Shown here piece after piece: positions 10,170 to 24,690 of a DNA stretch of 27,622 nucleotides. Source of the stretch: a virus; the IMG/VR virus record IMGVR_UViG_3300007541_000152, positions 1 to 27,622 of that record; one strand, 5' to 3'. Made by a program: the position numbers and the translations under genes. Every line of letters begins with the position of its first letter. The stretch's first letter is position 1. The notes under the pieces were generated by a model. That model did not search any database. It saw nothing but the letters and a program-made list of their open reading frames with translations, and had not been told where the DNA came from.

Positions 10170-12079
10170 GGTGCGTTATTCATCTCCGTCATTTTGTAAT
10201 CTCCATAACTAGGATTGTAATCTAATCCTATATCAGCAGCATGCTCTTTTTGCATACGTCTGAAAACCTTCATAGGAAACCAACTAGCCATAACTATATC
10301 AGTTTTTGACTTGTTTCGCTTTGAAACAGGCTTACCATCAAAGTATAACAGTTGTTGCCTATATTGCTGTACTTTTGCATTTGACATACCATCACCTACA
10401 GGTAAGTGTATTCTTCTATCTTCAAATAAATCTGCCATAGCACCTACACCATAAAGTGGGTCATGTTTATTTTTACCTGTAAGATGTCCTTGTACTGTAA
10501 TACCTGTACGTAAAGTAAATTCTTTTATACCTTCGTCCATACGAATTGCAGACTGAAATCCGTTTTCTTCTACTATCCAATGTCTACAATCGTAATCACG
10601 TAACCATACAGCCATCTGGTCAAGTGCTGCTCTAATACCGCCACCTTGATTATTTTCTAAATCAATTAAATATAATTCTCCACGATATTGGTCAATACCC
10701 CAAAGTACAGCAGCTTGATAACCAGATGATGCAGGGTCTAGTCCAGCAACTAAATATAAATTTTTATAAACTTGACCTAGTACTAAATCAGGTCGCATAC
10801 ATTGGTCAATAATATTCATAGTAAAGATTTGTGTACCTTCTACATATGCTTGATTGTAATATACCATTTCAAATGTTTGCCTACCACCTGTACTTTCTGC
10901 AGAATGTAATCTAGACATTAACCATTTAAAAGTACGTTTAGTAGGCCATAACATACAATCAGTATGCATATCTTCTTCGTGTTCTGGTATAGCACAATCT
11001 AATGAATGTGCAGTTTCTACTATGCTTGTAAAATTATCTGATTCAAGTAAATGATTATACAAATCATCAGGATGCTGACGTGAACCAATTACTACTACAG
11101 CAGTATGTTCCTCTTTACGAGATGATAATGTTGTAGTCCACCATTGTCTTGTACTTTCTCTTGCACCAGGTTGCATTGTAGTTTGGTGGTCTTCAATGTC
11201 GTCTGCAATAATTATGTCACAGTCACGTGATAATATCTTTCCACCTTTACCTACAGCAACCATTGTAGGTGATTTAATACCTGCAACTGTTCTAGTACCT
11301 ACAGTAAATTGATTTTGTGACCAGTTTTTACCTGACCTATTATCAGGTTTAAATGACATGCCTGGAGGACAGAAGTCATCTCTTAATTCTTCATTTGTAT
11401 CTAGTACATCAAGTACAGCAGATAACGCATTTTTAGCTATATCTTCGTTACCACCTACCCACATAATACGTACGTTAGGGTTTTTGCATATCTGATATAC
11501 AGCAAAGTGTATTAACAGTTCAGTCTTTCCATGTCGTGGGGGTGACAGTATTAATAATTCTTTACCGTTGTTTATAGAATCAATTATATTATTTATCCAA
11601 TTGACATGGAATGGTGCAGTTTCATATTTTTTGCCCAGTTCTGTTCTAAAGTATCTAGAGCGAAAGCTCGAAAAATTTTCTAATGCAGCTTCAGCTTCAG
11701 CGGATAGTTCCCAATCTTCTGCTGCAACTTCGTTGCGTAAATCTATTTTGTATGCTGCCATCATTCTGCTGACAGTAGCTGAAGAACAGCCAAGGAGGGA
11801 AGCCGCCTCAGCTACTGCCATCTCGCCAGTTGCAACTGCATCAGCTATACCTTCGCTTACGAAAGCTCGGTAATGCTGACCCCTTCGTACAGAAGCGTAA
11901 TCACCCTCATCAGAATTACGTTCTATATTAATTGGTTTTACAATTCTATCATTGTGCCGTTTGTCGGCTGCAAACTGTCGTTTTTGGCAGGTAGGAGAAC
12001 AAAATTTACGTTGCTTGCCTTTAAGTTTTTTTCTACATCCATTTGCTATGCAAACAACATTATGTTTAGTATCTACCAT
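10160..12079 (-). CDS. terL: Terminase large subunit with N-terminal zinc finger and HTH
   Basis: The ATPase-nuclease motor that packages DNA into procapsids. Residues 10-31 hold C10, C15, C27 and C31, a treble-clef-like zinc finger (KFCSPTC). Residues about 72-112 form a helix-turn-helix (AVAEAASLLGCSSATVSRMM). The ATPase has Walker A SPPRHGKTE at about 179-187 and Walker B DIIIADDIED at about 288-297. The nuclease domain shows D448 in AGLDPASSG, E504/E505 in WIVEENGF and an acidic TDIVMA near residue 600. At 639 aa it is longer than the usual ~450-550. The extra N-terminus may replace a separate small terminase subunit, which is not seen. CGGAGGA lies about a dozen bases before the ATG at 12079. 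The gene leads the minus-strand late operon. Confidence 0.95.
   Translation of the reverse strand: MVDTKHNVVCIANGCRKKLKGKQRKFCSPTCQKRQFAADKRHNDRIVKPINIERNSDEGDYASVRRGQHYRAFVSEGIADAVATGEMAVAEAASLLGCSSATVSRMMAAYKIDLRNEVAAEDWELSAEAEAALENFSSFRSRYFRTELGKKYETAPFHVNWINNIIDSINNGKELLILSPPRHGKTELLIHFAVYQICKNPNVRIMWVGGNEDIAKNALSAVLDVLDTNEELRDDFCPPGMSFKPDNRSGKNWSQNQFTVGTRTVAGIKSPTMVAVGKGGKILSRDCDIIIADDIEDHQTTMQPGARESTRQWWTTTLSSRKEEHTAVVVIGSRQHPDDLYNHLLESDNFTSIVETAHSLDCAIPEHEEDMHTDCMLWPTKRTFKWLMSRLHSAESTGGRQTFEMVYYNQAYVEGTQIFTMNIIDQCMRPDLVLGQVYKNLYLVAGLDPASSGYQAAVLWGIDQYRGELYLIDLENNQGGGIRAALDQMAVWLRDYDCRHWIVEENGFQSAIRMDEGIKEFTLRTGITVQGHLTGKNKHDPLYGVGAMADLFEDRRIHLPVGDGMSNAKVQQYRQQLLYFDGKPVSKRNKSKTDIVMASWFPMKVFRRMQKEHAADIGLDYNPSYGDYKMTEMNNAPWA
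11661..11869. repeat. 10-bp direct repeats bracketing the terL HTH segment
   Basis: CGAAAGCTCG occurs at 11661-11670 and again at 11860-11869. The bracketed ~190 bp encodes roughly terminase residues 70-139 (the HTH region) and is visibly richer in G+C than the flanks. The two copies fall in different reading frames (RAFV and SSFR), so they are not conserved because of protein sequence. Confidence 0.5.
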
Positions 12080-12517: not shown

Positions 12518-12660
12518 ACAGACCTATGGTAGTTAAATGATATGCCTTGAAGGATAATGTAAGTCCATACTTCTAGAATAATAAGTTCAAAAGAAAGTTA
12601 CTTAAATGAGTACTGAACTTCAAGGTCTGTATGTCTGTTATCCTTGCGGAACAGACATAC
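12518..12660 (+). promoter_or_regulatory. Structured leader of the first early gene
   Basis: The perfect hairpin GTATGTCTGTT (12629-12639) / AACAGACATAC (12650-12660) has a ten-base loop and ends 35 nt before the ATG at 12696. Further complementary pairs compete or stack: ACAGACC 12518-12524 with GGTCTGT 12624-12630, CCTTGAAG 12545-12552 with CTTCAAGG 12618-12625, and AAGTTC 12583-12588 with GAACTT 12615-12620. Their overlap allows alternative folds, as in an attenuator. A T-rich stretch follows the hairpin. Confidence 0.55.
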
Positions 12661-12695
12661 TGTTTGTTTCTCTAGTTAACTATAAAGGAGATTAA

Positions 12696-12944: not shown

Positions 12945-12987
12945 ACAGGAGGTTGGGATTAAATATCCCAGCCTTCTGTTTTTTTTA
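12945..12987 (+). terminator. Rho-independent terminator
   Basis: A 14-bp stem (12945-12958 with 12966-12979, two G-U pairs), a seven-base loop TTAAATA and then eight T residues. It lies 13 nt after the stop of the 78-aa gene. Confidence 0.9.
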
Positions 12988-12995
12988 TATGGAAC

Positions 12996-13017
12996 TATTA
13001 ACAAACACGTGATAAGT
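12996..13017 (+). promoter_or_regulatory. Putative promoter element, copy 1 of a 22-bp repeat
   Basis: This 22-bp block differs from 14134-14155 at one base. It consists of TATTAACAAACAC, then G (T in the other copy), then TGATAAGT. It follows a terminator and precedes a leader hairpin and gene. TTAACA could be a -35 box with TACAAC 17 bp later as -10. Alternatively GATAAG could be the -10, which would start the RNA at the hairpin. The length and conservation would also fit a phage polymerase promoter. Confidence 0.6.
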
Positions 13018-13023
13018 CGATAC

Positions 13024-13047
13024 AACGCTTTTACTTACGTAAGCGTT
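13024..13047 (+). promoter_or_regulatory. Leader hairpin with TACTTACGT loop
   Basis: AACGCTT (13024-13030) pairs with AAGCGTT (13041-13047). The loop is T + TACTTACGT. The hairpin ends 20 nt before the ATG at 13068. The loop is shared with the hairpins at 16097-16129 and 20985-21015, while the stems differ. Confidence 0.65.
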
Positions 13048-13067
13048 ATATCTATATAGGAGGAATA

Positions 13068-13358
13068 ATGAATAATAAATTTAAGCAAATTAGAAAGAGC
13101 TTTTTAGAGATTAATTGGAAAAGCTATTTGTATTATAATTATGTATATAAATATTTATGGCGAATTATAGATAAAAAATACATAAGTATGGGAAAAGATA
13201 GCTTAAAACAATTTACTATCAAGTTTAATAAAGAATTTAAAACTGATTTTACAGAAGAAGAACTTGAAATGTTGCATGGCGATTACATAGTAGGAGCTAT
13301 TTTTTGGGATTCAATAGAAGAAGATATTAGTATGATATTAGAAAGTAGGAATAAATAA
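13068..13358 (+). CDS. Hypothetical protein, 96 aa
   Basis: A strong AGGAGG lies six bases before the ATG. The N-terminal ~45 residues are basic and Tyr/Lys-rich (SYLYYNYVYKYLWR). The C-terminal half is acidic (DFTEEELEMLHGDY and EEDISMILESRNK). The contrast suggests a two-part, possibly DNA- or membrane-surface-associated protein, but no membrane helix or known motif is evident. Its stop overlaps the start of a 33-aa membrane peptide (TAATG), so the two are probably made together. Family and function are unrecognised. Confidence 0.75.
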   Translation: MNNKFKQIRKSFLEINWKSYLYYNYVYKYLWRIIDKKYISMGKDSLKQFTIKFNKEFKTDFTEEELEMLHGDYIVGAIFWDSIEEDISMILESRNK

Positions 13359-13459
13359 TGGATATATTAGGACTAATGACTATTAGTGCTAAATGGTTGA
13401 CACTAGGACTAATGTTTACAGCTATTGTCATACTTGTATGGCTATTTAGTAAAGAATAA
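13358..13459 (+). CDS. Single-pass membrane microprotein, 33 aa
   Basis: A 33-codon frame beginning at the TAATG overlap with the previous gene. Residues about 12-30 (WLTLGLMFTAIVILVWLF) form one uninterrupted hydrophobic helix, followed by a short charged SKE tail. Translational coupling supports expression; no independent SD is visible. It may be a small phage membrane protein acting on host envelope or metabolism, or an antiholin-like peptide, but no homologue is recognised. Confidence 0.6.
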   Translation: MDILGLMTISAKWLTLGLMFTAIVILVWLFSKE

Positions 13460-13468
13460 CAGTATATC

Positions 13469-13497
13469 GTTGTCGTATATCTTTTGAATACGACAAC
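13469..13497 (+). promoter_or_regulatory. Leader hairpin / possible terminator
   Basis: A perfect 10-bp stem GTTGTCGTAT / ATACGACAAC with nine-base loop ATCTTTTGA, followed by TTTT. It sits 20 nt before the ATG at 13518. It could end the upstream transcript, protect the 5' end of the next one, or both. Confidence 0.65.
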
Positions 13498-13517
13498 TTT
13501 TCATGAAAGGAGATTAT

Positions 13518-13784
13518 ATGAAGACTGTTGTATGCGGATATTGTTCGCAAGATGTAGAAACTATGAGAGATAGATATTGGTATTTTTCTAAAAAGACTAA
13601 CGCTAAATATCCATTGTTTGTTCATAGTTCATGCGGAGTAAAAATATTTGAGATGAACGAAAATATTTGGACATTTCATAATTTAGGTAAGCAAAGAACT
13701 AATGTAATTATTACACCTATAGAACTTAAAAAAGAAGTAGAAATAGATGAAGTAATTTACGAACAAAGTAAACTTAAAATATAA
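13518..13784 (+). CDS. Small putative zinc-finger protein, 88 aa
   Basis: The ATG at 13518 is chosen over 13503 because AAAGGAG falls between them, leaving ideal spacing for 13518. The product starts MKTVVCGYCSQDVE and has a CxxC pair (C6, C9) and H-S-S-C-G near residue 37, a likely one-zinc ribbon or knuckle. An aromatic stretch RYWYFSKK lies between. The C-terminal third is charged with several Ile/Val beta strands. No named family. It is bracketed by hairpins on both sides, so it forms its own small expression unit. Confidence 0.75.
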   Translation: MKTVVCGYCSQDVETMRDRYWYFSKKTNAKYPLFVHSSCGVKIFEMNENIWTFHNLGKQRTNVIITPIELKKEVEIDEVIYEQSKLKI

Positions 13785-13792
13785 TATATAGC

Positions 13793-13822
13793 TAGAGTGT
13801 ATATCCCCTTATGTACACTCTA
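13793..13822 (+). promoter_or_regulatory. Leader hairpin
   Basis: A 9-bp stem TAGAGTGTA (13793-13801) / TACACTCTA (13814-13822) with a 12-base loop containing CCCC, lying 39 nt before the ATG at 13862. A second AT-only palindrome (GTATATAT ... ATATATAC) follows. Confidence 0.6.
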
Positions 13823-13861
13823 TGGTATATATAAATATATACTAATAAAAAAGGAGAAACT

Positions 13862-14074
13862 ATGAATATAGTAGAAATAGATAAAGCAATTACAACATTA
13901 GGAACTATTCTTAATGACTATCAATTAGACCAAGTAAAAAATTTAGTTGGCCAAGCAGTTATTGATTATCATGAAGATAAAGCAGAATCTAGATATAGAG
14001 CTGATTTAAAAGTTCTAAATGTAGATATGAAATTAGATGTTGATTCATCTGATTTTGGCGATATACCATTTTAA
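13862..14074 (+). CDS. 70-aa protein with SSB-like C-terminal tail
   Basis: AAAAGGAG lies six bases before the ATG. Residues 1-45 look like two amphipathic helices (IDKAITTLGTILNDYQLDQ...). The last residues are VDSSDFGDIPF. This closely resembles the conserved acidic tip of bacterial single-stranded DNA-binding proteins (D-F-D-D-D-I-P-F in E. coli SSB), the peptide that docks exonucleases, primase, RecO and other replication proteins. At 70 aa there is no room for the ~110-aa OB fold, and none is seen. Inference: a small adaptor or competitor that recruits or diverts host SSB partners. It is followed immediately by a terminator, so the tail is the true end. Confidence 0.75.
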   Translation: MNIVEIDKAITTLGTILNDYQLDQVKNLVGQAVIDYHEDKAESRYRADLKVLNVDMKLDVDSSDFGDIPF

Positions 14075-14085
14075 TATATTCCTTT

Positions 14086-14126
14086 GGAGAGTGCTGTTGC
14101 TTTTGCACAGCACTTTCCATTTTTTT
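14086..14126 (+). terminator. Rho-independent terminator
   Basis: A 12-bp stem (14086-14097 with 14107-14118, one G-U) around TGCTTTTGC, followed by a run of seven T at 14120-14126. It ends the unit containing the SSB-tail gene. Confidence 0.9.
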
Positions 14127-14133
14127 AGTTGAT

Positions 14134-14155
14134 TATTAACAAACACTTGATAAGT
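14134..14155 (+). promoter_or_regulatory. Putative promoter element, copy 2 of a 22-bp repeat
   Basis: Same block as 12996-13017 with a single difference. Here the core ACACTTGATAAGTGT is a perfect 6-3-6 palindrome, typical of a repressor operator. It again sits directly after a terminator and before a leader hairpin. Confidence 0.6.
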
Positions 14156-14229
14156 GTATATAGCTGGTAGTGTATGAATTGTTTTTGTGTTCGAGTTTTC
14201 ACAATTTGTATGCTACTAGCTGTATATAC
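14154..14229 (+). promoter_or_regulatory. 29-bp wobble-rich leader hairpin
   Basis: Bases 14154-14182 pair with 14201-14229 without interruption: 29 pairs, seven of them G-U, and an 18-base loop (14183-14200). G-U pairs would be mismatches in a DNA cruciform, so the structure is meant for RNA. It ends 24 nt before the ATG at 14254 and could be an RNase III site, an mRNA stabiliser or a protein-binding leader. Confidence 0.75.
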
Positions 14230-14253
14230 AGCAAAACGAAAGGAGTAATCGTT

Positions 14254-14478
14254 ATGGAAGAAAATCAATACGAGTTACCTATCTGCGGTATTACTGGTAA
14301 ACCAGTGCCATGGAATAAAAGAACTTGGATAAGCAGATACATAAATGGGGAACTTAAAACCATTCCATTGTATCTTGACATTGATGCAGTACGTGATTTA
14401 CATAGACAATCACCAACTTACAAAGCTAAGAAATCTGTATCAGTTGTTGACAATCAAGAGTTAGTGTCTACTGAATAG
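14254..14478 (+). CDS. Hypothetical protein, 74 aa
   Basis: The frame is open back to 14170, but that part lies inside the leader helix. AAAGGAG at about 14240-14246 points to the ATG at 14254 as the real start. The product begins MEENQYELPICGITGKPVPW and contains an ICGITGK turn, then basic NKRTWISRY and an acidic IDAVRDLHR helix. There are too few cysteines for a zinc site. No family is recognised. The last codons are part of a 14-bp hairpin (14459-14490) that precedes the next gene. Confidence 0.7.
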   Translation: MEENQYELPICGITGKPVPWNKRTWISRYINGELKTIPLYLDIDAVRDLHRQSPTYKAKKSVSVVDNQELVSTE

Positions 14479-14490
14479 TAGGCACTAACT
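14459..14490 (+). promoter_or_regulatory. Hairpin across the stop codon, before the next SD
   Basis: A 14-bp stem (14459-14472 with 14477-14490, one G-U) closed by the tetraloop GAAT. It spans the end of the 74-aa gene and finishes 13 nt before the ATG at 14504. It may govern coupling between the two genes or protect the mRNA. Confidence 0.65.
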
Positions 14491-14503
14491 AGAAAGGAAA
14501 ATT

Positions 14504-14698
14504 ATGGATGAAATAATAAAATTAAATCAATTAACTAAAAAACAATTACGTACAATTATATTGTTTATGTTGCGTGATACTCTTAATTGGTCTACCAATG
14601 ACAGAGTTATAGAAACAATTCGTCAACATAATGCAATGCAATATGAAGCAATTAAATATCAAATTAATAAACACTATAAAAATCAAGAGGAGGAATAA
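14504..14698 (+). CDS. Hypothetical helical protein, 64 aa
   Basis: AGAAAGGAAAATT precedes the ATG. The product is all helical in appearance: LNQLTKKQLRTIILFMLRD then a second helix RVIETIRQHNAMQYEAIKY. The basic first helix could contact nucleic acid. It ends QEEE because its last codons GAGGAGGAA are also the SD for the next gene, whose ATG overlaps its stop (TAATG). No known family is recognised. Confidence 0.75.
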   Translation: MDEIIKLNQLTKKQLRTIILFMLRDTLNWSTNDRVIETIRQHNAMQYEAIKYQINKHYKNQEEE

Positions 14699-15045
14699 TG
14701 CGACAATATACAGATAGTGCAGACGCTATCAAAGCTTATGCAGAAGAAGTTAATTTTGACTTATCCAAATGTGATGAGGTAATTGAAATTAAGGAAAGCG
14801 ATAAATCAAGAGGTGGTTTAAAAATTAAATTTCCTAATTACAATAAAAAAATTATGACAGTTACAGTACATCACACATGGGGAGATATGTTTGACATTAC
14901 ATTTCATACTGATGAAAAAGGAGAACAAACAGTTAATGATATTTTCTTTGATGATTTAATGAAAACATTTTCTGCTTTAAAACTAGCAATGACTGGTATT
15001 ACAAAAGAACAATGGAAAAATATTTTATTTAATGAGGAAGAATAA
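14698..15045 (+). CDS. Hypothetical protein, 115 aa
   Basis: Starts in the TAATG overlap after a perfect SD embedded in the previous gene. The product has an alpha/beta pattern: an N-terminal helix (SADAIKAYAEEV), a strand-rich middle (GGLKIKFPNYNKKIMTVTVHHTWGDMFDITFHT) and a C-terminal helical part. HHTWGD is conspicuous but is not a motif I can name. It ends NEEE, again doubling as the next SD. The following four or five genes are all coupled through the same kind of junction. Confidence 0.75.
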   Translation: MRQYTDSADAIKAYAEEVNFDLSKCDEVIEIKESDKSRGGLKIKFPNYNKKIMTVTVHHTWGDMFDITFHTDEKGEQTVNDIFFDDLMKTFSALKLAMTGITKEQWKNILFNEEE

Positions 15046-15194
15046 TGATTACAGACGTTAAAAAACTAGTAGCAATTATAAATGTATTACGCAGACAAAT
15101 AGATGTAGCATTTGAATTATTAACACCTGAACAACAGGCATATTTTTTAACTGCTATTAAAACTATTGGCGAACCATATATGGAGGAAGAATAA
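15045..15194 (+). CDS. Microprotein of a tandem paralogue pair, 49 aa
   Basis: A 49-codon frame starting in a TAATG overlap with GAGGAAGAA as SD. The product contains VLRRQIDVAFELLTPEQQA, then YFLTAIKTI and ends MEEE. It is clearly related to the next gene product (VLR-Q-D-AF---TPEQQA--L-AI--I), so the two arose by duplication. The pattern suggests two amphipathic helices, possibly forming a dimer. No outside homology is recognised. Confidence 0.8.
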   Translation: MITDVKKLVAIINVLRRQIDVAFELLTPEQQAYFLTAIKTIGEPYMEEE

Positions 15195-15373
15195 TGAGTG
15201 TTAATTTAAAATTAGCAAAAAGTTTAAGTAAAAGTATTACACAATTATTAAAAGTTATAGATGTTTTGCGTAAACAAAATGATGCAGCTTTTAAAATTAT
15301 GACACCAGAACAACAAGCTATTTGGTTAGTTGCTATACAACAAATTAAACAACAACCTATGGAGGAAGAATAA
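15194..15373 (+). CDS. Microprotein of a tandem paralogue pair, 59 aa
   Basis: Second copy of the pair: VIDVLRKQNDAAFKIMTPEQ, then QAIWLVAIQQI, ending MEEE. It has a ten-residue longer N-terminus than its paralogue (basic, LAKSLSKSITQLL). Start and stop are both TAATG overlaps. The 3' end ATGGAGGAAGAATAATG is identical to the ends of the genes on either side. Confidence 0.8.
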   Translation: MSVNLKLAKSLSKSITQLLKVIDVLRKQNDAAFKIMTPEQQAIWLVAIQQIKQQPMEEE

Positions 15374-15486
15374 TGCCAACTTATAAAATACTTGTCAGAT
15401 TTGATGCTGAAGATTGGGATGACGCTGTTAGCGTTGTTGAAAATATGTATATAAAAGATTGGATAAGTGAAATGGAGGAAGAATAA
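15373..15486 (+). CDS. Microprotein, 37 aa
   Basis: A 37-codon frame in the chain of TAATG-coupled genes. MPTYKILVRFDAEDWDDAVS reads as a strand followed by a helix, a half ferredoxin-like unit. It ends MEEE through the shared SD/stop/start cassette. It resembles the N-terminal part of the following 51-aa protein in layout (strand, acidic turn, Ala-rich helix) but not strongly in sequence. No family is assigned. Confidence 0.7.
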   Translation: MPTYKILVRFDAEDWDDAVSVVENMYIKDWISEMEEE

Positions 15487-15641
15487 TGTTAAATAGATAT
15501 GAAATTACAGCTAATGTAGAGTTTTCAGTTGTTGCTGATTCAGAAGAAAAAGCTTTTGAATTAGCTGATGAAAAACTTGTAATTATACCAAATAATATCA
15601 GTATTACTGGTATGTCAATTAGAAAAGGAGATGAAGTATGA
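15486..15641 (+). CDS. Microprotein, 51 aa
   Basis: Begins at the third copy of the 17-bp junction. The pattern EITANVEFSVVADSEEKAFE followed by LADEKL is strand, then Asp-Ser-Glu-Glu turn, then helix. This recalls the short DpnD/PcfM-like fold of mobile elements (V-x-V-x-A-x-S-x-E-E-A), but the match is only in pattern. It ends in an ATGA overlap with the 73-aa gene. AAAAGGAG for that gene lies inside its last codons. Confidence 0.7.
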   Translation: MLNRYEITANVEFSVVADSEEKAFELADEKLVIIPNNISITGMSIRKGDEV

Positions 15642-15859
15642 GTATGTATATATTTGTAGATACAAGTATTAAAGAAAATGTTAATGAAATTACTGTACAT
15701 TTTCAAGTGCCATCAGATATGACACCAGATGAAGCAATGAAAACTATTGATGATTTAGTTCAACTAGCAGATAATAATGAAAATATAAAAATATTATCAC
15801 ATGAGCATAGTGTATATAGTATTTATCAATATAGTGATTTAGCTGATACAATTAAATAA
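15638..15859 (+). CDS. Hypothetical protein, 73 aa
   Basis: Starts in an ATGA overlap, preceded by AAAAGGAG. The product shows strand (MYIFVDTSI), strand (EITVHFQVPSD), helix (TPDEAMKTIDDLVQLADN), strand (NIKILSHEH) and short helix, a compact alpha/beta domain of ferredoxin-like order. It shares the 'strand - Asp/Ser/Thr - Glu-Ala helix' idea with the two preceding microproteins, so the three may be distant relatives. It is the last gene before a 287-bp non-coding, structured interval. Confidence 0.75.
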   Translation: MSMYIFVDTSIKENVNEITVHFQVPSDMTPDEAMKTIDDLVQLADNNENIKILSHEHSVYSIYQYSDLADTIK

Positions 15860-15865
15860 ACATCA

Positions 15866-16059
15866 AAGCTATCAACATACTGCTAGTTTATAAGGTCATT
15901 CATACCTTTCCCTTGCTAGCCGTTAGACCAAAGTATGTAGGTAGCTTGTAGCACATAGGAACGCATAAGGTAGGAAACTCTAGCCTAGCACTAGAGATTA
16001 AAACAACCATATAAACAATGTAATTCCTGTTTGGTTCGCTAACTATGTGTTACAAGCTA
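15866..16059 (+). ncRNA. Candidate structured non-coding RNA 1
   Basis: A gene-free interval with dense complementarity. TAGCTTGTAGCACATAG (15942-15958) pairs with CTATGTGTTACAAGCTA (16043-16059), 17 pairs with one G-U, and encloses the hairpin CTCTAG / CTAGAG (15978-15983 / 15991-15996). Upstream, a nested arm is formed by ACATAC 15875-15880 / GTATGT 15933-15938, GCTAG 15882-15886 / CTAGC 15916-15920 and AAGGT 15892-15896 / ACCTT 15904-15908. AAGCTA at 15866-15871 could replace the 3' strand of the long helix. It has no tRNA-like T-loop and no coding frame. It may be an independent RNA or the long leader of the 150-aa gene. Confidence 0.55.
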
Positions 16060-16096
16060 TTTATATAGCACTCAAAAGTAAAAAATAAAAGTATAT

Positions 16097-16129
16097 GTGT
16101 CGTGTCGTTACCTATGTACGCCACGACAC
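16097..16129 (+). promoter_or_regulatory. Leader hairpin with TACCTATGT loop
   Basis: GTGTCGTG (16097-16104) pairs with CACGACAC (16122-16129). An inner CGT/ACG leaves the nine-base loop TACCTATGT. It ends 17 nt before the ATG at 16147. Confidence 0.65.
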
Positions 16130-16146
16130 TATATGAAAGGAGAATA

Positions 16147-16599
16147 ATGAAAATAAATGGTACAAATATAATTGCAAAATCTAGACCACAACAAAATTAT
16201 GTAGTTGAATTTGCTTTTATAAATGATTTTGATGAAAACCAAGATATAGATTCAACAGATTCTATTAATTTGTTGTTTTCAATTGAAGTCAAAGCTGTTT
16301 CAAATATAACTGCAATTAATACTGCATATGAAATATTAATGACTGAAAAAGCGTTAAGCTTTTATGGTTTTTCAAAAGAAAATGCAGAACATATTACAGA
16401 AAATCATTCAGAAGTAGATATAAAAGATTATCTAAAAGATTTTATGTTAGATAATCCTACAAGTGTTCAATGTTATGTTAAAGGTAATAAAAATGAATTA
16501 TTTAGACTTACAGAACAATCTATTTATCAATATCGTGAAGAAGTTAATGAAAATATGATTAATGACATTAAAACATATCTAGAGGAACAGGGGGAATAA
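16147..16599 (+). CDS. Hypothetical protein, 150 aa
   Basis: The frame is open from 16102, but that part is the leader hairpin. AAAGGAG lies four bases before the ATG at 16147, so the product starts MKINGTNIIAKSRPQQ. It is acidic and Asn-rich with an alpha/beta pattern: NYVVEFAFINDF, a second strand block (NLLFSIEVKAVSNITAINTAYEILM is strand then helix) and a helical C-terminus ending EEQGE. The arrangement of strands and a long Ala-helix again recalls the small alpha/beta proteins just upstream. The stop overlaps the next start (TAATG), and the last codons supply its SD. Function unrecognised. Confidence 0.75.
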   Translation: MKINGTNIIAKSRPQQNYVVEFAFINDFDENQDIDSTDSINLLFSIEVKAVSNITAINTAYEILMTEKALSFYGFSKENAEHITENHSEVDIKDYLKDFMLDNPTSVQCYVKGNKNELFRLTEQSIYQYREEVNENMINDIKTYLEEQGE

Positions 16600-16907
16600 T
16601 GTTTCCAGAAGATATGAAATTAGAAAATCCACCAACACCATTTGGTAATAGAACAGGTAAAAAACCTACATTATTGACAGATGTTAAGGTTAAAGTCTTG
16701 TTATCTATGCCAGGCCAATGGTTTAATATTGGTACTCGTGATAAGTGGATTAGCGGTGTCAAGGCAAATATAGAGTCTATGACACAAGCAAATATATCTC
16801 ATCTTAAAGATAAAGGTAAGTTTGAGATACAACAAAGAAAAAACAACGAAGGTAAAGTTGACATTTATTGTCGCTTTATTCAAAAATCTTCTGATGAAGA
16901 AGAATAA
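16599..16907 (+). CDS. Hypothetical protein, 102 aa
   Basis: TAATG-coupled to the 150-aa gene. The N-terminus MFPEDMKLENPPTPFGNRTG is Pro-rich. The body alternates strands and basic turns (VKVKVLLSMPGQWFNIGTRD then ISGVKANIESMTQ), and KFEIQQRKNNEGKVDIYCRF forms a beta hairpin. The tail SSDEEE is acidic. The basic beta-rich body with acidic tail could bind DNA or RNA, but it lacks the SSB tip and I do not recognise the family. It ends 15 nt before the AAA ATPase and probably belongs to the same operon. Confidence 0.75.
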   Translation: MFPEDMKLENPPTPFGNRTGKKPTLLTDVKVKVLLSMPGQWFNIGTRDKWISGVKANIESMTQANISHLKDKGKFEIQQRKNNEGKVDIYCRFIQKSSDEEE

Positions 16908-16922
16908 TAGAAAGGAAATACT

Positions 16923-17648
16923 ATGGAAAATACAGCAGACTGCTGGAAATTAGTAAATGCTGTACTTGGTAAATCAAGACGTATTTTATTATACGGACCA
17001 CCAGGTACAGGTAAATCATATAGTGCAATTAAAACAAATGCACCATTAAATATAAACGGAGAACCTAATGTGTTTTCTGTAACTATGACAGAAGATACTG
17101 CTTCTGCTAACTTAGAAGGCTTTTATAAGCCAAGTAGTAGCGGTACATTCGAATGGCATGACGGTATTGCAATACAGTCATGGAGAAATGGCGGTCGTCT
17201 TGTTATTAATGAGATAGACCATGCATCACCAGATGCAATGACATTTCTTCACGCTATTCTTGATGACCAAGAAATAGCACAATTAACAATCAATAACGAT
17301 ACAAAGGAAACTGTTAAACCAGAACCAGGTTTTCAAGTTGTAGCTACAACTAACAGTCCGCCAGAATCATTGCCATTAGCATTAAAGGATAGATTCCCAG
17401 TTAAAATATATATTAACAAGATACATCCTAAAGCTATGGCAAAATTTCCAGATGAATGGCATAAGGCTATCAATGATACATCTATTGTTGATGACCCAGA
17501 ATCTCGTGTTTCTGTTCGTTCATGGAAAGAATTCTTTGATTTACAAAAGAATGATTTTGATATAGAAACTGCAGCTAAATTAGTATTTGGTGATAAAGCC
17601 GAAGAATTAATTGATGCAATACAGTTATCTAAAGTCGATGCAGAATAA
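16923..17648 (+). CDS. AAA+ ATPase, MoxR/CobS-like, 241 aa
   Basis: An ATP-driven remodelling protein. Walker A GPPGTGKS is at residues 25-32, Walker B LVINEID at 93-99, the sensor-1 Asn in VVATTNSP at about 144, an Arg finger in LKDRF at 157 and a sensor-2-like SVRSW near 200. The E-G-F/Y block after Walker A (SANLEGFYKP) fits the MoxR/CobS branch. Such ATPases act with a VWA-domain partner, and here the next gene encodes one with an 11-nt overlap. In cells the pairs insert metals or mature enzymes; in phages the target is unknown. At 241 aa it is a near-minimal AAA module. AGAAAGGAA precedes the ATG. Confidence 0.9.
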   Translation: MENTADCWKLVNAVLGKSRRILLYGPPGTGKSYSAIKTNAPLNINGEPNVFSVTMTEDTASANLEGFYKPSSSGTFEWHDGIAIQSWRNGGRLVINEIDHASPDAMTFLHAILDDQEIAQLTINNDTKETVKPEPGFQVVATTNSPPESLPLALKDRFPVKIYINKIHPKAMAKFPDEWHKAINDTSIVDDPESRVSVRSWKEFFDLQKNDFDIETAAKLVFGDKAEELIDAIQLSKVDAE

Positions 17649-19137
17649 ACCATATCCCTATCCAGAAATAATTACAGGTACAGAATGGCAAGTTAGAGAA
17701 ACATTAAATGGTCAAGGTGCTTGTACAGATAATTTGAATTATCAAATGACTGTTCCTTTGGATAGAGAATGTGAATATTGTGGTTGTAATCATGGTCGTA
17801 TGGTTCGTAGACACGAATTAGGTCATGTTAAATGGTCACCAAAAACCATGGGCAAATTATCACCACAAACACGTAAAGAAGCTGTAGAAGTTCTAGAAGA
17901 AATACGTGTCAATTATTTAATGTATATTAATAATCTAGGCATAAATGAACCAACTATGTGTTTAGAAATGTTTAGGATGAAATTGATACAACTTATAGAA
18001 AAAGGTTCTATAGCAGAAATAATACTTTACGGTTTAGCTTGTATGTGGAAAACAAATGAAATAGATGAAGACCATAAATATGTTAATCCATATGAGGCAT
18101 CAAACGGTTTTTATAAAAAAGATAAATATCGTAGAGCCCAATATGAAAGTTATCATAAATGGTCTAGTGAATTTATTGCATTAAAAGAAATTATGGCTAA
18201 ATTCAGAACAGAGCCGAATGTCAGTCAAATAAGACAAGCGGAATTAGAATTTGCACATAATCAAATGTATCACTTTTATAGTAAATTAATAAAAGTTAGA
18301 CATAATAATTCTACTAGTATTAGCTATCGTAAAGTACAAAAAATTGCTGAAGAATTATCTTTAGTACTAGATACTTTTATGGATAAACCAGAAGAAAGTA
18401 TTTATCAACAACCAAGTCAAGACAATCTTGAAGAATCAGGAGAAAATTCTAATAATCAAGATGCTAAATCTGGTGTTGGTGACACTGTTAAAGACCTAGA
18501 AGAACGTATGCGTAAATCTTTGATAGAAGAAATGCAATATAATTCTAGTTCTGGTATTGGTAAATGGGGAACAATGACTATTCATAAACCACCATTAACT
18601 GATAATTTACAAGCAAGACTAAAAAATGGTAGACAATATAGACCAGCTGATTTTGGTTACAATCCTAAATACATAAATCGTTATTGTATTGACAAAAAGA
18701 TATTTAAACAAAAACAGCATGTATTAGGTGGAACTATATTGATAGATGCATCAGGTTCTATGAACTTTAGTGCAAATGATTTATTAGAAATTATGCAGTT
18801 GCTACCAGCAGTTAATATTGCTATGTACAATGGCAGCTACAATACAGGTGACTTACGAGTTATTGCGAAAAATGGTATGCGTGTAAATCAAAATTATTTA
18901 TACAAGCATAAAGGTCGTGGTAATGTCATAGATGGTCCAGCGTTAGAATGGCTAGCATCACAACCACCTAGAAGAATATGGGTATCAGATATGCATGTAT
19001 TTGGTATTCATGGTAAAAATTCTAGTGGTATGAATTTAATGCGTGATGTACTGCAAATTTGTACAAGTAATAAAATTATTAATCTAAAAGATATAGATGA
19101 AGTAAAGGAACATGCTATAAAACTTAATATGGTATAG
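17638..19137 (+). CDS. VWA-domain protein, CobT-like partner, 499 aa
   Basis: Chosen start is the ATG at 17638, overlapping the ATPase by 11 nt; in-frame TTG 17611 and ATG 17614 are less likely. An N-terminal metal-binding region has C45, C48 and C50 (CEYCGC) and HELGH at residues 59-63, followed by EEIRV at 87-91. The HExxH plus downstream E-x-R-V arrangement is typical of phage and bacterial CobT-like proteins. A helical middle and an acidic linker (about residues 255-290, Gln/Glu/Asn-rich) follow, then a VWA domain with the MIDAS motif DASGS at 370-374 and a later SDMH acidic loop. Family knowledge says AAA + VWA pairs form a chelatase- or remodelling-type complex. Whether HELGH is proteolytic or structural is open. 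Confidence 0.88.
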   Translation: MQNKPYPYPEIITGTEWQVRETLNGQGACTDNLNYQMTVPLDRECEYCGCNHGRMVRRHELGHVKWSPKTMGKLSPQTRKEAVEVLEEIRVNYLMYINNLGINEPTMCLEMFRMKLIQLIEKGSIAEIILYGLACMWKTNEIDEDHKYVNPYEASNGFYKKDKYRRAQYESYHKWSSEFIALKEIMAKFRTEPNVSQIRQAELEFAHNQMYHFYSKLIKVRHNNSTSISYRKVQKIAEELSLVLDTFMDKPEESIYQQPSQDNLEESGENSNNQDAKSGVGDTVKDLEERMRKSLIEEMQYNSSSGIGKWGTMTIHKPPLTDNLQARLKNGRQYRPADFGYNPKYINRYCIDKKIFKQKQHVLGGTILIDASGSMNFSANDLLEIMQLLPAVNIAMYNGSYNTGDLRVIAKNGMRVNQNYLYKHKGRGNVIDGPALEWLASQPPRRIWVSDMHVFGIHGKNSSGMNLMRDVLQICTSNKIINLKDIDEVKEHAIKLNMV

Positions 19138-19143
19138 TGTAGG

Positions 19144-19430
19144 GAACATAGTAAACCAGCAATGGTGCTTGTGACCTCCTTTCCACAAGTTAAGCTATGT
19201 TCACGTAGTGGAATAGAGTCGTAAGAGAATTACGAACAAGGGTTTTCTAGTCATGTCAACAACAATCCTATAGTTAACACCACTACACCTAATTTGTGCA
19301 TGCCGGGCATGGTTACGAACAAAGCGTTTATCAAGCATCACCTTGTTTTAGCAAATCAATATTTAACAAATTTAATGCGATGTGATGCGAAGATGAAAAG
19401 CGTGTGAGTACCGTGCTAGGCAGCACACAT
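19144..19430 (+). ncRNA. Candidate structured non-coding RNA 2 with anti-SD loop
   Basis: A gene-free interval of 341 bp between the VWA and HTH genes. GAACATAG (19144-19151) pairs with CTATGTTC (19195-19202) and encloses CTTGTG (19168-19173) / CACAAG (19184-19189), whose loop is ACCTCCTTTC. Next come GTAGTGG (19205-19211) / CCACTAC (19280-19286), enclosing CGTAA-gagaa-TTACG (19220-19234), a tight CATGCC/GGCATG hairpin near 19300, and GTGCT-AGGC-AGCAC (19413-19426). The loop matches the 3' tail of many bacterial 16S rRNAs and complements the AAAGGAG-type SDs used here. No tRNA-like pattern or supported reading frame is seen. Confidence 0.55.
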
Positions 19431-19478
19431 AATTAATTATTAATTTAAAAACTTGTATTAAAACAGAAAGGAATTATA

Positions 19479-19727
19479 ATGAAACCTATGATAGATATTG
19501 AACAACTGTTGACTGAAGCAGAAACAGGAAAAGTTAATCGTATATCAGAAAGAATAACTGATGAAGCCAAACCATTTTGGGATGGTATAGAATCAAGAGT
19601 TCTATCTGGTAGACCAATTAAACCATTTGTTGTAAGCAGATTGCTTAAAGAACATTATGGTATCAAAATAAGTGAAAGTGCAATTCGCAATCACTTTCAA
19701 AACTTAGTAGATAATGCCCAAGAATAA
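19479..19727 (+). CDS. Small helix-turn-helix protein, 82 aa
   Basis: GAAAGGAATTATA precedes the ATG. The N-terminus MKPMIDIEQLLTEAETGK is an amphipathic helix also found at the start of the next protein (EIEKLLAEAESIK). Residues about 45-75 (RPIKPFVVSRLLKEHYG, then IKISESAIRNHFQNL) look like an HTH with a recognition helix SESAIRNHFQ. It overlaps the metallophosphoesterase gene by 14 nt. Likely a DNA-binding partner or regulator of that enzyme; a terminase-small-like role is possible but the gene lies far from terL. Confidence 0.75.
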   Translation: MKPMIDIEQLLTEAETGKVNRISERITDEAKPFWDGIESRVLSGRPIKPFVVSRLLKEHYGIKISESAIRNHFQNLVDNAQE

Positions 19728-20778
19728 TAACGAAATAGAAAAGTTATTAGCTGAGGCTGAGTCTATTAAGATACAAGAACTAAAAGCAGATAATCTTAAA
19801 CTTCTTAAATTATTAGAGAAAGCTAAAAATAAAAAAGCTGATATGATAAATGCAGTTTATGATGCTGTATCTACAAATCTTCGTACATGGGATAAACCAA
19901 TTATTCCTAAACCAACAATACACAAAGCAAATAAAAACGAAGAAGTAGCAGTAGCAATATTATCTGATGTTCAATTAGCAAAAGTAACGCCAGATTATAA
20001 CACAAAAGTAGCTGAAAAACGTGTCATTGAATATGCAAATAAAATAGTTGAATTGACAAATGTTCAAAGATATGCACATCCAGTTAATAAGTGTGTAGTC
20101 CTAGCAGCTGGAGATATAGTTGAAGGTGAACTTATATTCCCAGGTCAACATCATTTAATTGATGCTTCGTTATATAACCAAGTAACAATTGATGGACCTA
20201 GAATATTGACACAATTCTTTGACATATTACTAGCTAACTTTGTGGAAGTAGAAGTACACTGGGTAATAGGTAATCACGGTTCACTAGGTGGACGTGCTAG
20301 AAAAGATTATCATCCAGACTCTAATGCAGACAGAATGCTAGGCAAAATAATGGATATGATATATGAAAAAGATAAACGAATTTCATTTACTATTCCAGAT
20401 TCTGAGGGCGATAATCATTGGTTTGATATTGCTGATATTGGCAAAGGATGTAAGTTCTTTGTATGGCATGGTGATAATGTTAGAGGACATGGTGGTTTCC
20501 CATGGTATGGATTTGGTAAAAAACTACTAGGTTGGAAAGCATTAGCATCAAGAGGCTTAATGCCAGACTTTGATTACGCAGTTGCTGGACACTTTCATAC
20601 ACCTACAACAATGTATGTTAATGACATAAGAGTTTGGGTTAATGGAAGTACTGAAAGCTATAACACTTATGCATTAGAACAATTAGCGTCAATGGGTAGA
20701 CCATGTCAATGGTTACTATTCGCTAAACCTAATCATGGTGTAACAGCAGAGTATCTTGTTAAATTAAACGACAAGTAA
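19714..20778 (+). CDS. Calcineurin-like metallophosphoesterase, 354 aa
   Basis: A probable metal-dependent nuclease/phosphodiesterase. The N-terminal ~45 residues form a coiled coil (EIEKLLAEAESIK, then ADNLKLLKLLEKAKNKK). The catalytic core follows the family order: motif I LSDVQLAK at 83-90, motif II AGDIVEGE at 132-139, motif III GNHG at 186-189, a WHGDN block at 251-255 and GHFH at 292-295. Motif I has Gln in place of the usual His (D-x-H), and motif III has Gly after GNH. SD-x-Q versions occur in phage relatives, so activity is plausible but metal coordination differs. Next to an annealing protein and HTH protein, a role in DNA end processing (Mre11/SbcD-like) is inferred. Confidence 0.85.
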   Translation: MPKNNNEIEKLLAEAESIKIQELKADNLKLLKLLEKAKNKKADMINAVYDAVSTNLRTWDKPIIPKPTIHKANKNEEVAVAILSDVQLAKVTPDYNTKVAEKRVIEYANKIVELTNVQRYAHPVNKCVVLAAGDIVEGELIFPGQHHLIDASLYNQVTIDGPRILTQFFDILLANFVEVEVHWVIGNHGSLGGRARKDYHPDSNADRMLGKIMDMIYEKDKRISFTIPDSEGDNHWFDIADIGKGCKFFVWHGDNVRGHGGFPWYGFGKKLLGWKALASRGLMPDFDYAVAGHFHTPTTMYVNDIRVWVNGSTESYNTYALEQLASMGRPCQWLLFAKPNHGVTAEYLVKLNDK

Positions 20779-20792
20779 TAAATATAGGTATA

Positions 20793-20978
20793 ATGTATAT
20801 TATGGATGACATAAATGTCAAACCTAATTGGAAAGTAACTGGAATAGAATACAGTGGTTTAGGTGATAGACCATATTTTATTCTTGCAGATGATGAGGGA
20901 AACATCAAATTACAACCACTTAGTCGTGGAGTTACAGACCTAAGGAAGACATTAAATCTAGATAAAGAAGAAGAATAA
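20793..20978 (+). CDS. Hypothetical protein, 61 aa
   Basis: A short frame 14 nt after the metallophosphoesterase, with only a weak TAGG before the ATG at 20793; a second in-frame ATG at 20802 is possible (MDDINVKPNW). The product is a small beta-rich domain: NWKVTGIEYSGLG, RPYFILADDEGNIKLQPL, then a helix and acidic tail KEEE. The beta-hairpin 'ADDEGNIKLQ' suggests an OB- or SH3-like barrel, but it is too short to assign. It ends just before the leader hairpin of the annealing protein. Confidence 0.65.
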   Translation: MYIMDDINVKPNWKVTGIEYSGLGDRPYFILADDEGNIKLQPLSRGVTDLRKTLNLDKEEE

Positions 20979-20984
20979 TATATC

Positions 20985-21015
20985 ATACGTTTCTTTACCT
21001 ACGTAAGAAACGTAT
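20985..21015 (+). promoter_or_regulatory. Leader hairpin with TACCTACGT loop
   Basis: A perfect 11-bp stem ATACGTTTCTT (20985-20995) / AAGAAACGTAT (21005-21015) with loop TACCTACGT, 21 nt before the ATG at 21037. TTTTATAAAAAGG follows, so it may also act as a weak terminator for the upstream gene. Confidence 0.7.
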
Positions 21016-21036
21016 TTTATAAAAAGGAAGGAAGTT

Positions 21037-21597
21037 ATGACTAATAACGTTGACTTGTTATCCCCATTCCCATCAGAACTTGTGCGTAAAGCACCATCTG
21101 GTAAGTTTGGAGATTATGTACCACACGCTAATTATGTAGAAAGATTACGTGATAGTGGTGTCAAATATTCATGGTCATGTGAACCAATCTATGGTATGCA
21201 TGGCGGTGAGAAAAGAATAGTAGGTGCTAAAGGCACTATAACTATTGAAGGTATGGGAAGTTATGATGGCTTTGGAGATGTTGATACATTTAAATTAACA
21301 AATTCAAAGTTTAATGACGGTACAAACCTTAAAGATGCTGAATCTGATGCATTCAAACGTGCATGTATGAGATTCGGTTTAGGCGTGGAACTTTGGTCTG
21401 GTTCTACTCAATCAGAAGAAGAAGCTACATCTTATGTATCTAATGAATATACACCAGAAATGGCTGCAAAAGATGCATCAGTTATAGTAACTAAAGTAGA
21501 CATGCGTAAAAAAGAAAATAAACCAAGTCCTGAAACATTGGCAAATATGGAAGCAATTATGGATGAAATTCTAAATGCTTCAGAAGGAGATAAATAA
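21037..21597 (+). CDS. Rad52/22-family single-strand annealing protein, 186 aa
   Basis: AAGGAAGGAAG precedes the ATG. The family signature is clear: a beta-sheet core with SWSCEPIYGMHGGEKRIVGA (residues about 45-64), GTITIEGMGSYDGFGD (66-81), and the hallmark helix DAESDAFKRACMRFGLGVEL at 100-119. These proteins anneal complementary single strands in recombination-dependent replication and end joining. The C-terminal 60 residues are charged and probably disordered, as usual for partner binding. It is the first gene of a new unit with its own leader hairpin, followed by the paralogue pair and a zinc-ribbon protein, likely a recombination operon. Confidence 0.88.
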   Translation: MTNNVDLLSPFPSELVRKAPSGKFGDYVPHANYVERLRDSGVKYSWSCEPIYGMHGGEKRIVGAKGTITIEGMGSYDGFGDVDTFKLTNSKFNDGTNLKDAESDAFKRACMRFGLGVELWSGSTQSEEEATSYVSNEYTPEMAAKDASVIVTKVDMRKKENKPSPETLANMEAIMDEILNASEGDK

Positions 21598-23854: not shown

Positions 23855-24395
23855 TTTTACAGATTATAGTACAAAAAATAATGTTGAATACGACCATAAT
23901 GATATTAGTCGTATAAAATTTAGAGAACAAACTAAAGAACTAGTTAAGTTAGCTAAAGATGTTGAAGTCTTTGGTGGCCGTAGGTTCTTAGGTTTAAATG
24001 CAAATGGTACTGAAGTATGGGTATCATATAAAATTGACAGAGATACTTTAAATTTAGAGCTATCAACTACACATGACTTAAATAGTATTGTAGAACTAGC
24101 ACCTAAAAGAGTAACAGTAGGTATAAATGAAGTTGCACCTAATGATTTGATGCAAGCACGAGCTACTGATACAGGAGCAGTAACACATAATACATTACGA
24201 TACATACAACGGCTTATAGACCTACCACAAGGAGTAGGTAGAGTTGAAGGTAGATGTAGTACGCAACTATTTATGTACGTATCTAACGCTATTTACGAAG
24301 GTAAATGGGGATTAGGTCAAAACAAAGTTAGATGGCGTGACATATTAGAAGCTTGGGACTTCCCATCAGGGCGATACTTTACAGTGTATGGCTAA
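23847..24395 (+). CDS. Hypothetical protein with GTG start, 182 aa
   Basis: GTG at 23847, eight bases overlapping the 26-aa gene, with GAGGAAGGA upstream; no nearby ATG fits the SD. The product has an N-terminal helical region (IKFREQTKELVKLAKD), a beta block (RRFLGLNANGTEVWVSYKID, then LNLELSTTHD) and a helical C-terminal half with THNTLRYIQRLIDLP and RDILEAWDFPSG. The last part could be a small winged-helix-like domain. No family is recognised. Its end overlaps the SET-domain gene by eight bases. Confidence 0.75.
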   Translation: MNNFTDYSTKNNVEYDHNDISRIKFREQTKELVKLAKDVEVFGGRRFLGLNANGTEVWVSYKIDRDTLNLELSTTHDLNSIVELAPKRVTVGINEVAPNDLMQARATDTGAVTHNTLRYIQRLIDLPQGVGRVEGRCSTQLFMYVSNAIYEGKWGLGQNKVRWRDILEAWDFPSGRYFTVYG

Positions 24396-24690
24396 ATACA
24401 GGCCATTACCTGCATATTTAACAATCAGACCTAGTTCTATAGACGGATTAGGTCTGTTTACTGTTAAAGATATTTCTAAAGGTACAAATATAGGACTTAC
24501 TCATGTCTTTTGTGACTGCACATTACAGATAATACGTACACCATTAGGTGGTTTTATCAATCATAGCAATACACCTAATTGTAAATTAAGTAAACTTAAT
24601 GGTTTTAATTACTTATGGACAACAGAAGACATACCAGCATATACAGAACTGACACTTAAATATACTATGTATAATCCAGAGGAGGAATAA
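24388..24690 (+). CDS. SET-domain protein (putative lysine methyltransferase), 100 aa
   Basis: Transfers methyl groups from S-adenosylmethionine to protein lysines, if active. The SET motifs are compactly arranged: SSIDGLGLFTVKDISKGTNI at residues 17-36 (the S-x-I-x-G-x-G-L-F block), FINHSNTPNC at 56-65 (the N-H-S pseudoknot element) and TTEDIPAYTELTLKYTMY at 78-95 (D-I-x-x-x-x-E-L-T-x-x-Y). C42, C44 and C65 might bind zinc. At 100 aa it is a minimal core without the pre-SET/post-SET regions. It is coupled by TAATG to a 37-aa lysine-rich peptide. Confidence 0.85.
   Translation: MAKYRPLPAYLTIRPSSIDGLGLFTVKDISKGTNIGLTHVFCDCTLQIIRTPLGGFINHSNTPNCKLSKLNGFNYLWTTEDIPAYTELTLKYTMYNPEEE

Follow-up and report, generated by a model that had tools for sequence, protein, structure and literature searches.

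Hairpins between phage genes

Intergenic hairpins with CUUCGG loops were reportedly described in T4 and other phages by Tuerk et al. in 1988, and phage T7 has RNase III processing sites, which are long hairpins between co-transcribed genes. Here we analyze a family of leader hairpins in a 27,622-nt stretch of viral DNA (hereafter the window; IMG/VR virus record IMGVR_UViG_3300007541_000152, positions 1 to 27,622) and in relatives of this virus. The window carries an early-type operon on the plus strand, with genes for an AAA protein, an exonuclease and a single-strand annealing protein, and a late-type operon on the minus strand, with the terminase and very long open reading frames; the terms early and late are thus assigned by gene content. 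The leader hairpins stand in the gaps of the early operon. They resemble the T7 sites in being hairpins placed in gaps between genes, and T7 itself, run through the same pipeline, has such hairpins at a comparable density. They differ in that most stems are shorter than 20 bp and that only the early operon has them.

Other described systems offer further points of comparison. Intergenic CUUCGG hairpins occur in phages including T4, where one 5' hairpin is reported to stabilize the gene 32 mRNA (PMC8948821). As in that type, the hairpins described here are intergenic and combine variable stems with a favored small loop. In contrast to it, their loops are of the form C[YNNY]G, with CUUCGG found at only 3 of 115 apices, and they occupy the majority of the 50-130 nt early gaps while late gaps are nearly devoid of them. 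In cluster K mycobacteriophages, start-associated sequences (SAS) are located in the half of the genome that holds the non-structural genes, mostly in gaps of more than 50 bp, and about half of these start sites have an inverted repeat just upstream, the extended start-associated sequence (ESAS), whose arms carry a 17-bp consensus within a genome; the function is given as unknown (PMC3203893, PMC12699233). Those repeats resemble our hairpins in where they lie, in gaps of more than 50 bp ahead of ribosome sites that serve non-structural genes; cluster K phages infect Actinomycetota, as the present phage family may. Unlike ESAS, our hairpins are without an arm consensus, judging from unlike stems in the window and 36 sequence groups at a single gene, and no motif search of the arms was run. 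The 13-bp SAS GGGATAGGAGCCC, looked for on both strands with as many as 2 mismatches allowed, was absent from the window and occurred once in 124 loci. T4 gp43 represses translation via a hairpin whose loop contains UAAC (PMC3014915). That hairpin too is upstream of a start codon, and UAAC also recurs among the loops here, but the T4 operator serves one gene and its cognate protein, whereas many genes and no known protein are involved here.

A search of the open-access PMC literature found no description of these hairpins for this phage family. In the window, Rfam returned 3 hits up to an E value of 1, none of which reached its gathering score or lay at a leader hairpin described here. Four relatives gave 9 hits, likewise below gathering scores, 8 of them to microRNA models. 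The tRNA scan detected no tRNA. We rate intercistronic phage hairpins as known, and the missing stem consensus, the different loop class and the early-only, gap-filling distribution as new.

Distribution, pairing and loops of the leader hairpins

IMG/VR holds hundreds of stretches that encode relatives of this uncultured, mostly aquatic phage family, of which at most 80 were retained per search. The loci collected are partly overlapping and related, so the counts given here are not independent, and the simple script used for gene calling overlooked some small genes (e.g., 15374-15487 of the window). Folding tests used 30-200 shuffles, and the leader stretch that was folded began at the stop codon and stopped 12 nt short of the start. 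Gaps between genes were surveyed in 124 loci pooled from a first and a later-fetched set, 118 of them with early pairs and 110 with late pairs. Among 1323 early same-strand pairs, 775 gaps are shorter than 40 nt, 5 measure 40-49 nt, 339 measure 50-130 nt and 204 are longer. Folding of the 50-130 nt class (338 of the 339 early gaps) gave z < -3 in 222/338 early versus 2/58 late gaps, and z < -2 in 256/338 versus 5/58 (Fisher p 9e-21 for the early/late contrast, with relatedness ignored). After removal of identical 3' ends, z < -3 was found in 192/300 early versus 2/56 late gaps. G+C averages 32% in the early and 35% in the late gap sequences.

Folding of leaders against coding windows, together with the leaders of the single-strand annealing protein gene (Rad52-like, a label coined here for phrog_3290), established the hairpins as a family-wide leader feature. 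In the first set (77 partly redundant loci, mechanical gene caller), z < -3 was reached by 137 of 195 intergenic leaders versus 27 of 193 coding windows, and the later-fetched loci gave 57/83 versus 14/82. Named by the window position of the gene, the hairpin-rich families of the first set are the Rad52-like genes (45/49) and the 14504 (30/30), 13518 (15/19), 13862 (11/14) and 14254 (11/12) families. Of 120 distinct hairpins in this set, 106 begin no more than 12 nt past the stop codon and 69 end 12-20 nt ahead of the AUG, with a tail to 81 nt; the 12-nt floor and the stop-codon side of these positions are set by the folded stretch. Control phages, with genes predicted by the same in-house caller, had z < -3 in 0/3 (HTVC010P), 2/11 (TM4), 3/14 (first 50 kb of T4), 3/11 (Immanuel3) and 9/16 (T7) gaps of 50-130 nt.

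The stems are replaced while their pairing is kept. For the Rad52-like gene, 299 redundant loci reduce to 83 distinct leaders, 81 of which have a hairpin with 9 bp or more, and these hairpins form 36 sequence groups at a 30% edit-distance limit; the proteins of 13 sampled loci are 77-85% identical to that of the window. Across 19 groups, two-sided compensatory changes were observed at 41 of 257 consensus pairs, compared with 18.6 in shuffles and 0-6 with slid partners. One-sided changes occurred at 14 of the 257 pairs (26.5 in shuffles), and only 15 of 1346 cells were non-pairing (98.9 in shuffles). One group of 23 hairpins had no consensus structure and adds no pairs to this count. In the window, for example, the leader of gene 16147 has the stem GTGTCGTG/CACGACAC, where that of locus L336 has CGTGCCGT/ACGGCACG. 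Stem length has a median of 16 bp and reaches at least 20 bp in 45 of 227 hairpins. A sequence-only reading of the window had proposed that stems change with pairing preserved, and the compensatory changes bear this out. The best reading is that pairing and a compact pyrimidine loop matter, and the stem sequence does not.

The sequence-only reading had listed eight leader hairpins in the window, and all of them are present where it placed them, including five further leaders at 12629, 13469, 13793, 14154 and 14459. Its three named hairpins (13024, 16097 and 20985) do end 17-21 nt before a start codon (20, 17 and 21 nt). Measured against 200 dinucleotide shuffles per leader, six of the eight have z scores of -3.4 to -5.3, while two, 12629 and the named 13024, are not significant individually (folded stretches 12615-12690, 13010-13066, 13455-13515, 13780-13860, 14135-14256, 14440-14500, 16080-16147 and 20975-21036). 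The description of the three named stems as unrelated needs correction: an inner TAC/GTA pairing is common to all three, and 13024 and 20985 also share CTT/AAG. The nine-base loops ascribed to them (contents TACTTACGT, TACCTATGT and TACCTACGT, that of 13024 with one additional T) are therefore better described as four-base loops, UUAC, CUAU and CUAC, closed by C-G.

These loops belong to a strand-biased class. Among 115 dereplicated leader hairpins, 55 have a CYNNYG apex and 9 its reverse complement, which supports a loop constraint chiefly at the level of the RNA strand; 200 coding hairpins of like stem length gave 18 and 32, respectively. Within four-base loops, C[YNNY]G accounts for 32/53 leader versus 1/67 coding hairpins, and C[UAAC]G is the commonest in leaders (9/53). 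This strand bias argues for a role at the RNA level. The class was noticed on the first set and then checked on 23 held-out hairpins, of which 9 have CYNNYG and 2 the reverse complement (shuffle mean 3.2, maximum 9 in 500 runs). A tighter consensus chosen after inspection of the first 58 hairpins, CYTNYG, was not reproduced (2/23 held-out, shuffle mean 1.1), though the pooled set has 27/115 versus 3/115. Two other candidates, ACYNWYR and ACYNNYR, were rejected with 0/23 held-out hairpins and 2 and 3 reverse complements.

The nonamer TACYTAYGT, which the sequence-only reading took for one conserved loop, is enriched in leaders but is not a rule of the family. It is found in 13 of 278 family leaders, several of the 13 from related loci, and its reverse complement in none (dinucleotide shuffles, mean 1.07, maximum 5 in 100 runs); 265 leaders lack it, and 7 of the 13 copies are at a hairpin apex. 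The window has 3 copies on the plus strand, all in hairpin loops, and 1 on the minus strand (backward control 2 and 0); over the window as a whole it is thus rare and does not clearly exceed the control. As a loop on a stem of at least 7 bp, it occurs 47 times on the plus and once on the minus strand in redundant loci, where control loops gave 4/2, 0/3 and 6/0. None of the 23 held-out hairpins, chosen to be unlike the first set, has it; two of the 83 later leaders (L310 and L342), excluded by that dissimilarity filter, do. As a fixed, conserved unit the nonamer was rejected, because ten related records hold 31 copies versus 27 of the backward control and because other loops stand at corresponding places. 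In L309 and L310 it sits on a different stem, still ahead of the Rad52-like gene, while the Rad52-like leader of L006 has TACCTTACGT instead. Behind the corresponding terminator and repeat, the L006 hairpin has TAGCTTACGC; in L161 the 13024 hairpin is unchanged. Orthologous leaders of gene 16147 have TACCCTATGT or TACCTTTTGT, with ACCTATGT retained in L087, and the 12629 hairpin keeps a CUUACG or CUUGCG loop in part of the relatives and diverges in others. TACYTAYGT is a minor case, one instance of the C[YNNY]G class.

Genome context and neighboring elements

A search of 19 kb of the window gave no DNA-level match in the phage collection, nor did the Rad52-like protein and a 507-aa protein match any protein there. 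The terminase is 27-29% identical to proteins of that collection among the matches listed (20 of 46). Relatives were also found in contigs of metagenome-assembled genomes (MAGs) labeled Actinomycetota (L213-L216, with L214 and L215 lying on a single contig) and, in the case of L212, Gammaproteobacteria. The host may be actinobacterial, but the binning of phage contigs is weak evidence.

Table 1. Leader hairpins and selected features of the window
Feature	Positions	Strand	Details
Large terminase gene, start of late operon, internal control	10160-12079	-	phrog_38, E 8.9e-64
Leader hairpin of gene 12696	12629-12660	+	loop CUUGCG; z -1.75 alone
Rho-independent terminator-like hairpin and T tract	12945-12979	+	terminator scan
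Promoter-like repeat TTAACAAACACNTGATAAGT, directly upstream of 13024 hairpin	12998-13017	+	sequence repeat, putative
Leader hairpin 1	13024-13047	+	AACGCTT/AAGCGTT, C[UUAC]G apex; 20 nt to ATG 13068; z -1.6
Leader hairpin of gene 13518	13469-13497	+	z -3.5
Leader hairpin of gene 13862	13793-13822	+	z -4.1
Terminator-like hairpin AGTGCTGT/ACAGCACT, then T tract	14090-14114	+	read from sequence; absent from terminator scan list
Second copy of promoter-like repeat TTAACAAACACNTGATAAGT	14136-14155	+	sequence repeat, putative
Long leader hairpin of gene 14254	14154-14229	+	minimum free energy -38.8, z -5.3
Leader hairpin of gene 14504	14459-14490	+	z -3.9
Leader hairpin 2	16097-16129	+	GTGTCGTG/CACGACAC, C[CUAU]G apex; 17 nt to ATG 16147; z -3.8
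Leader hairpin 3, Rad52-like gene	20985-21015	+	ATACGTTTCTT/AAGAAACGTAT, C[CUAC]G apex; 21 nt to ATG 21037; z -3.4
Single-strand annealing protein gene, basis for collecting orthologous leaders	21037-21597	+	phrog_3290, E 1.9e-9

At two places in the window (12945-13017 and 14090-14155), a terminator-like hairpin, the TTAACAAACACNTGATAAGT repeat and a leader hairpin follow one another. L006 also shows this order twice and L090 shows it once, and the repeat itself has 2, 2 and 1 copies in the window, L006 and L090, respectively. To judge by sequence, this order suggests internal promoters, with transcripts that may start near the hairpin.

Positions 16923-19137 encode an AAA ATPase (Pfam AAA_5) followed by the 507-aa protein. 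We refer to these as CobS-like and CobT-like, names coined here and prompted by the phrog_249 match of the ATPase; the two genes adjoin in most of 14 sampled relatives. A further early gene (24388-24690) matches the SET domain of Pfam (PF00856, E 1.8e-7, above cut-off), which we find unusual for a small phage.

Two conserved non-coding stretches lie in the early operon and are separate from the leader-hairpin finding; in the Rfam scans of the window and of four relatives, neither reached the gathering score of any family. Behind the CobT-like gene, a conserved structured RNA (19138-19478, conserved part about 19138-19300) gave 225 hits in redundant loci, 92 of them distinct and all on a single strand. 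In 17 sequences, compensatory changes were seen at 17 of 26 predicted consensus pairs. Of six helices drawn by hand, four keep 97-100% pairing and two fail at 24-26%; the hairpins have GCAA and GAGAA loops. This looks like an undescribed phage RNA. The other stretch, 15862-16090, gave 308 hits on the plus and 148 on the minus strand (redundant). It holds an invariant GTAGGTAGCTT, followed (43-136 nt on, as measured in 18 aligned loci) by AAGCTA and then a nearly invariant TCTAT. Pairing is possible between the two arms and also between an upstream GCTACTTACAT and the same GTAGGTAGC, so that the folds are mutually exclusive. In L082 the element is ahead of a gene of the 14504 family. It could be an RNA switch or an inverted repeat acting at the DNA level.

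Possible roles of the hairpins

We lean, at slightly less than even confidence, toward the hairpins being structural plugs, placed where the early mRNA has gaps free of ribosomes, which would protect the message and insulate each ribosome site. The mRNA-stabilizing role that the sequence-only reading suggested is one part of this proposal. An effect on stability and translation is our proposal; it builds on the existence, position and early-only distribution of the hairpins, their compensatory change and their strand-biased loops. Early genes, putatively read as one transcript, mostly either overlap or adjoin at less than 40 nt, or have a gap of at least 50 nt filled by a hairpin. The hairpin, from a few nt past the stop codon to just ahead of the ribosome site, spans the interval that has neither a terminating nor an initiating ribosome. 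A plug there could deny endonucleases, and possibly Rho, access to AU-rich RNA that no ribosome covers. It could also shield the next ribosome site against both upstream RNA and terminating ribosomes.

Several observations weigh against this proposal. Late gaps of like length and similar base composition are without such hairpins, and hence a need to close all gaps that are free of ribosomes cannot explain everything; for a purely passive role, their absence is the chief difficulty. Within the early genes, 116 of the 338 folded gaps of 50-130 nt fall short of z -3, the 204 longer gaps were outside the folding, and some families are hairpin-poor (22721 family 3/10, 15638 family 1/6, and three others 0/7, 0/6 and 0/6). 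The loop class is also narrower than plain stability demands. To our knowledge, UUUU, UUAU and UCUU are not extra-stable loops, and the narrow class is the main hint of a loop reader.

Such a reader would make any stem capped by C[YNNY]G a common RNA tag, by which one trans-acting factor of the phage or host controls the early messages together. We consider it possible, if rather unlikely, that an RNA-binding protein recognizes these loops just ahead of the ribosome sites and switches the early genes jointly, e.g., off late in infection. The confinement to early genes, the excess of C[YNNY]G among four-base leader loops over coding ones, the enrichment of TACYTAYGT in leaders, and the UAAC shared by the gp43 operator loop of T4 and the commonest four-base loop here are all consistent with it, but the loop sequence drifts among relatives, and CYTNYG, for all its pooled excess, is not enriched in the held-out hairpins. 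Moreover, Pfam scans of 20 early proteins revealed no RNA-binding family above cut-off, several small early proteins being outside the scan. The nonamer leaves the weighing of the readings as it was, since the C[YNNY]G class already covers it. Comparably improbable, in our view, are RNase III-type sites as in T7, at which the host double-strand nuclease would cut a polycistronic early RNA into gene-sized messages whose ribosome sites are free. Their position and tolerance of stem sequence match, T7 was the nearest of the five control phages (although some of its stretches contain terminators or promoters), and RNase III is encoded in 3/3 MAGs that hold relatives. However, efficient RNase III cleavage usually requires about two helical turns, and few of the stems here are as long as 20 bp; late genes lack the hairpins, and a phage-encoded RNase III was found in 0/12 related virus records, which may be fragments.

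Insulation or standby alone, in which the hairpin blocks the drift of terminating ribosomes and frees the ribosome site with no role in decay, seems more doubtful still. The bimodal gaps (below 40 nt without a hairpin, at least 50 nt with one) and the placement of hairpin ends relative to the stop codon and AUG would suit it, though the bimodality is partly explained by the room that a hairpin requires. Elements acting on DNA, be they operator palindromes, promoters, terminators or cruciforms, we regard as very improbable. The promoter-like repeat directly ahead of the 13024 and 14154 hairpins speaks for them, but the replacement of stem sequence under persistent pairing disfavors them, as does the strand bias of the loops. 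None of the three named hairpins is among those listed by the terminator scan, even if that at 20985 precedes a short T run, and no common upstream box was evident by eye in 48 Rad52-like leaders.

Whichever role applies, the element persists at orthologous places though its sequence has been replaced repeatedly. Conserved RNA elements are normally detected by sequence, and alignment-based searches can miss an element of this kind. If the tag reading were true, what is retained in the tag of uncoupled early genes would be its shape, with a nearly complete turnover of its sequence. The early/late contrast within one genome is a natural control for the function of intercistronic hairpins in phage messages.

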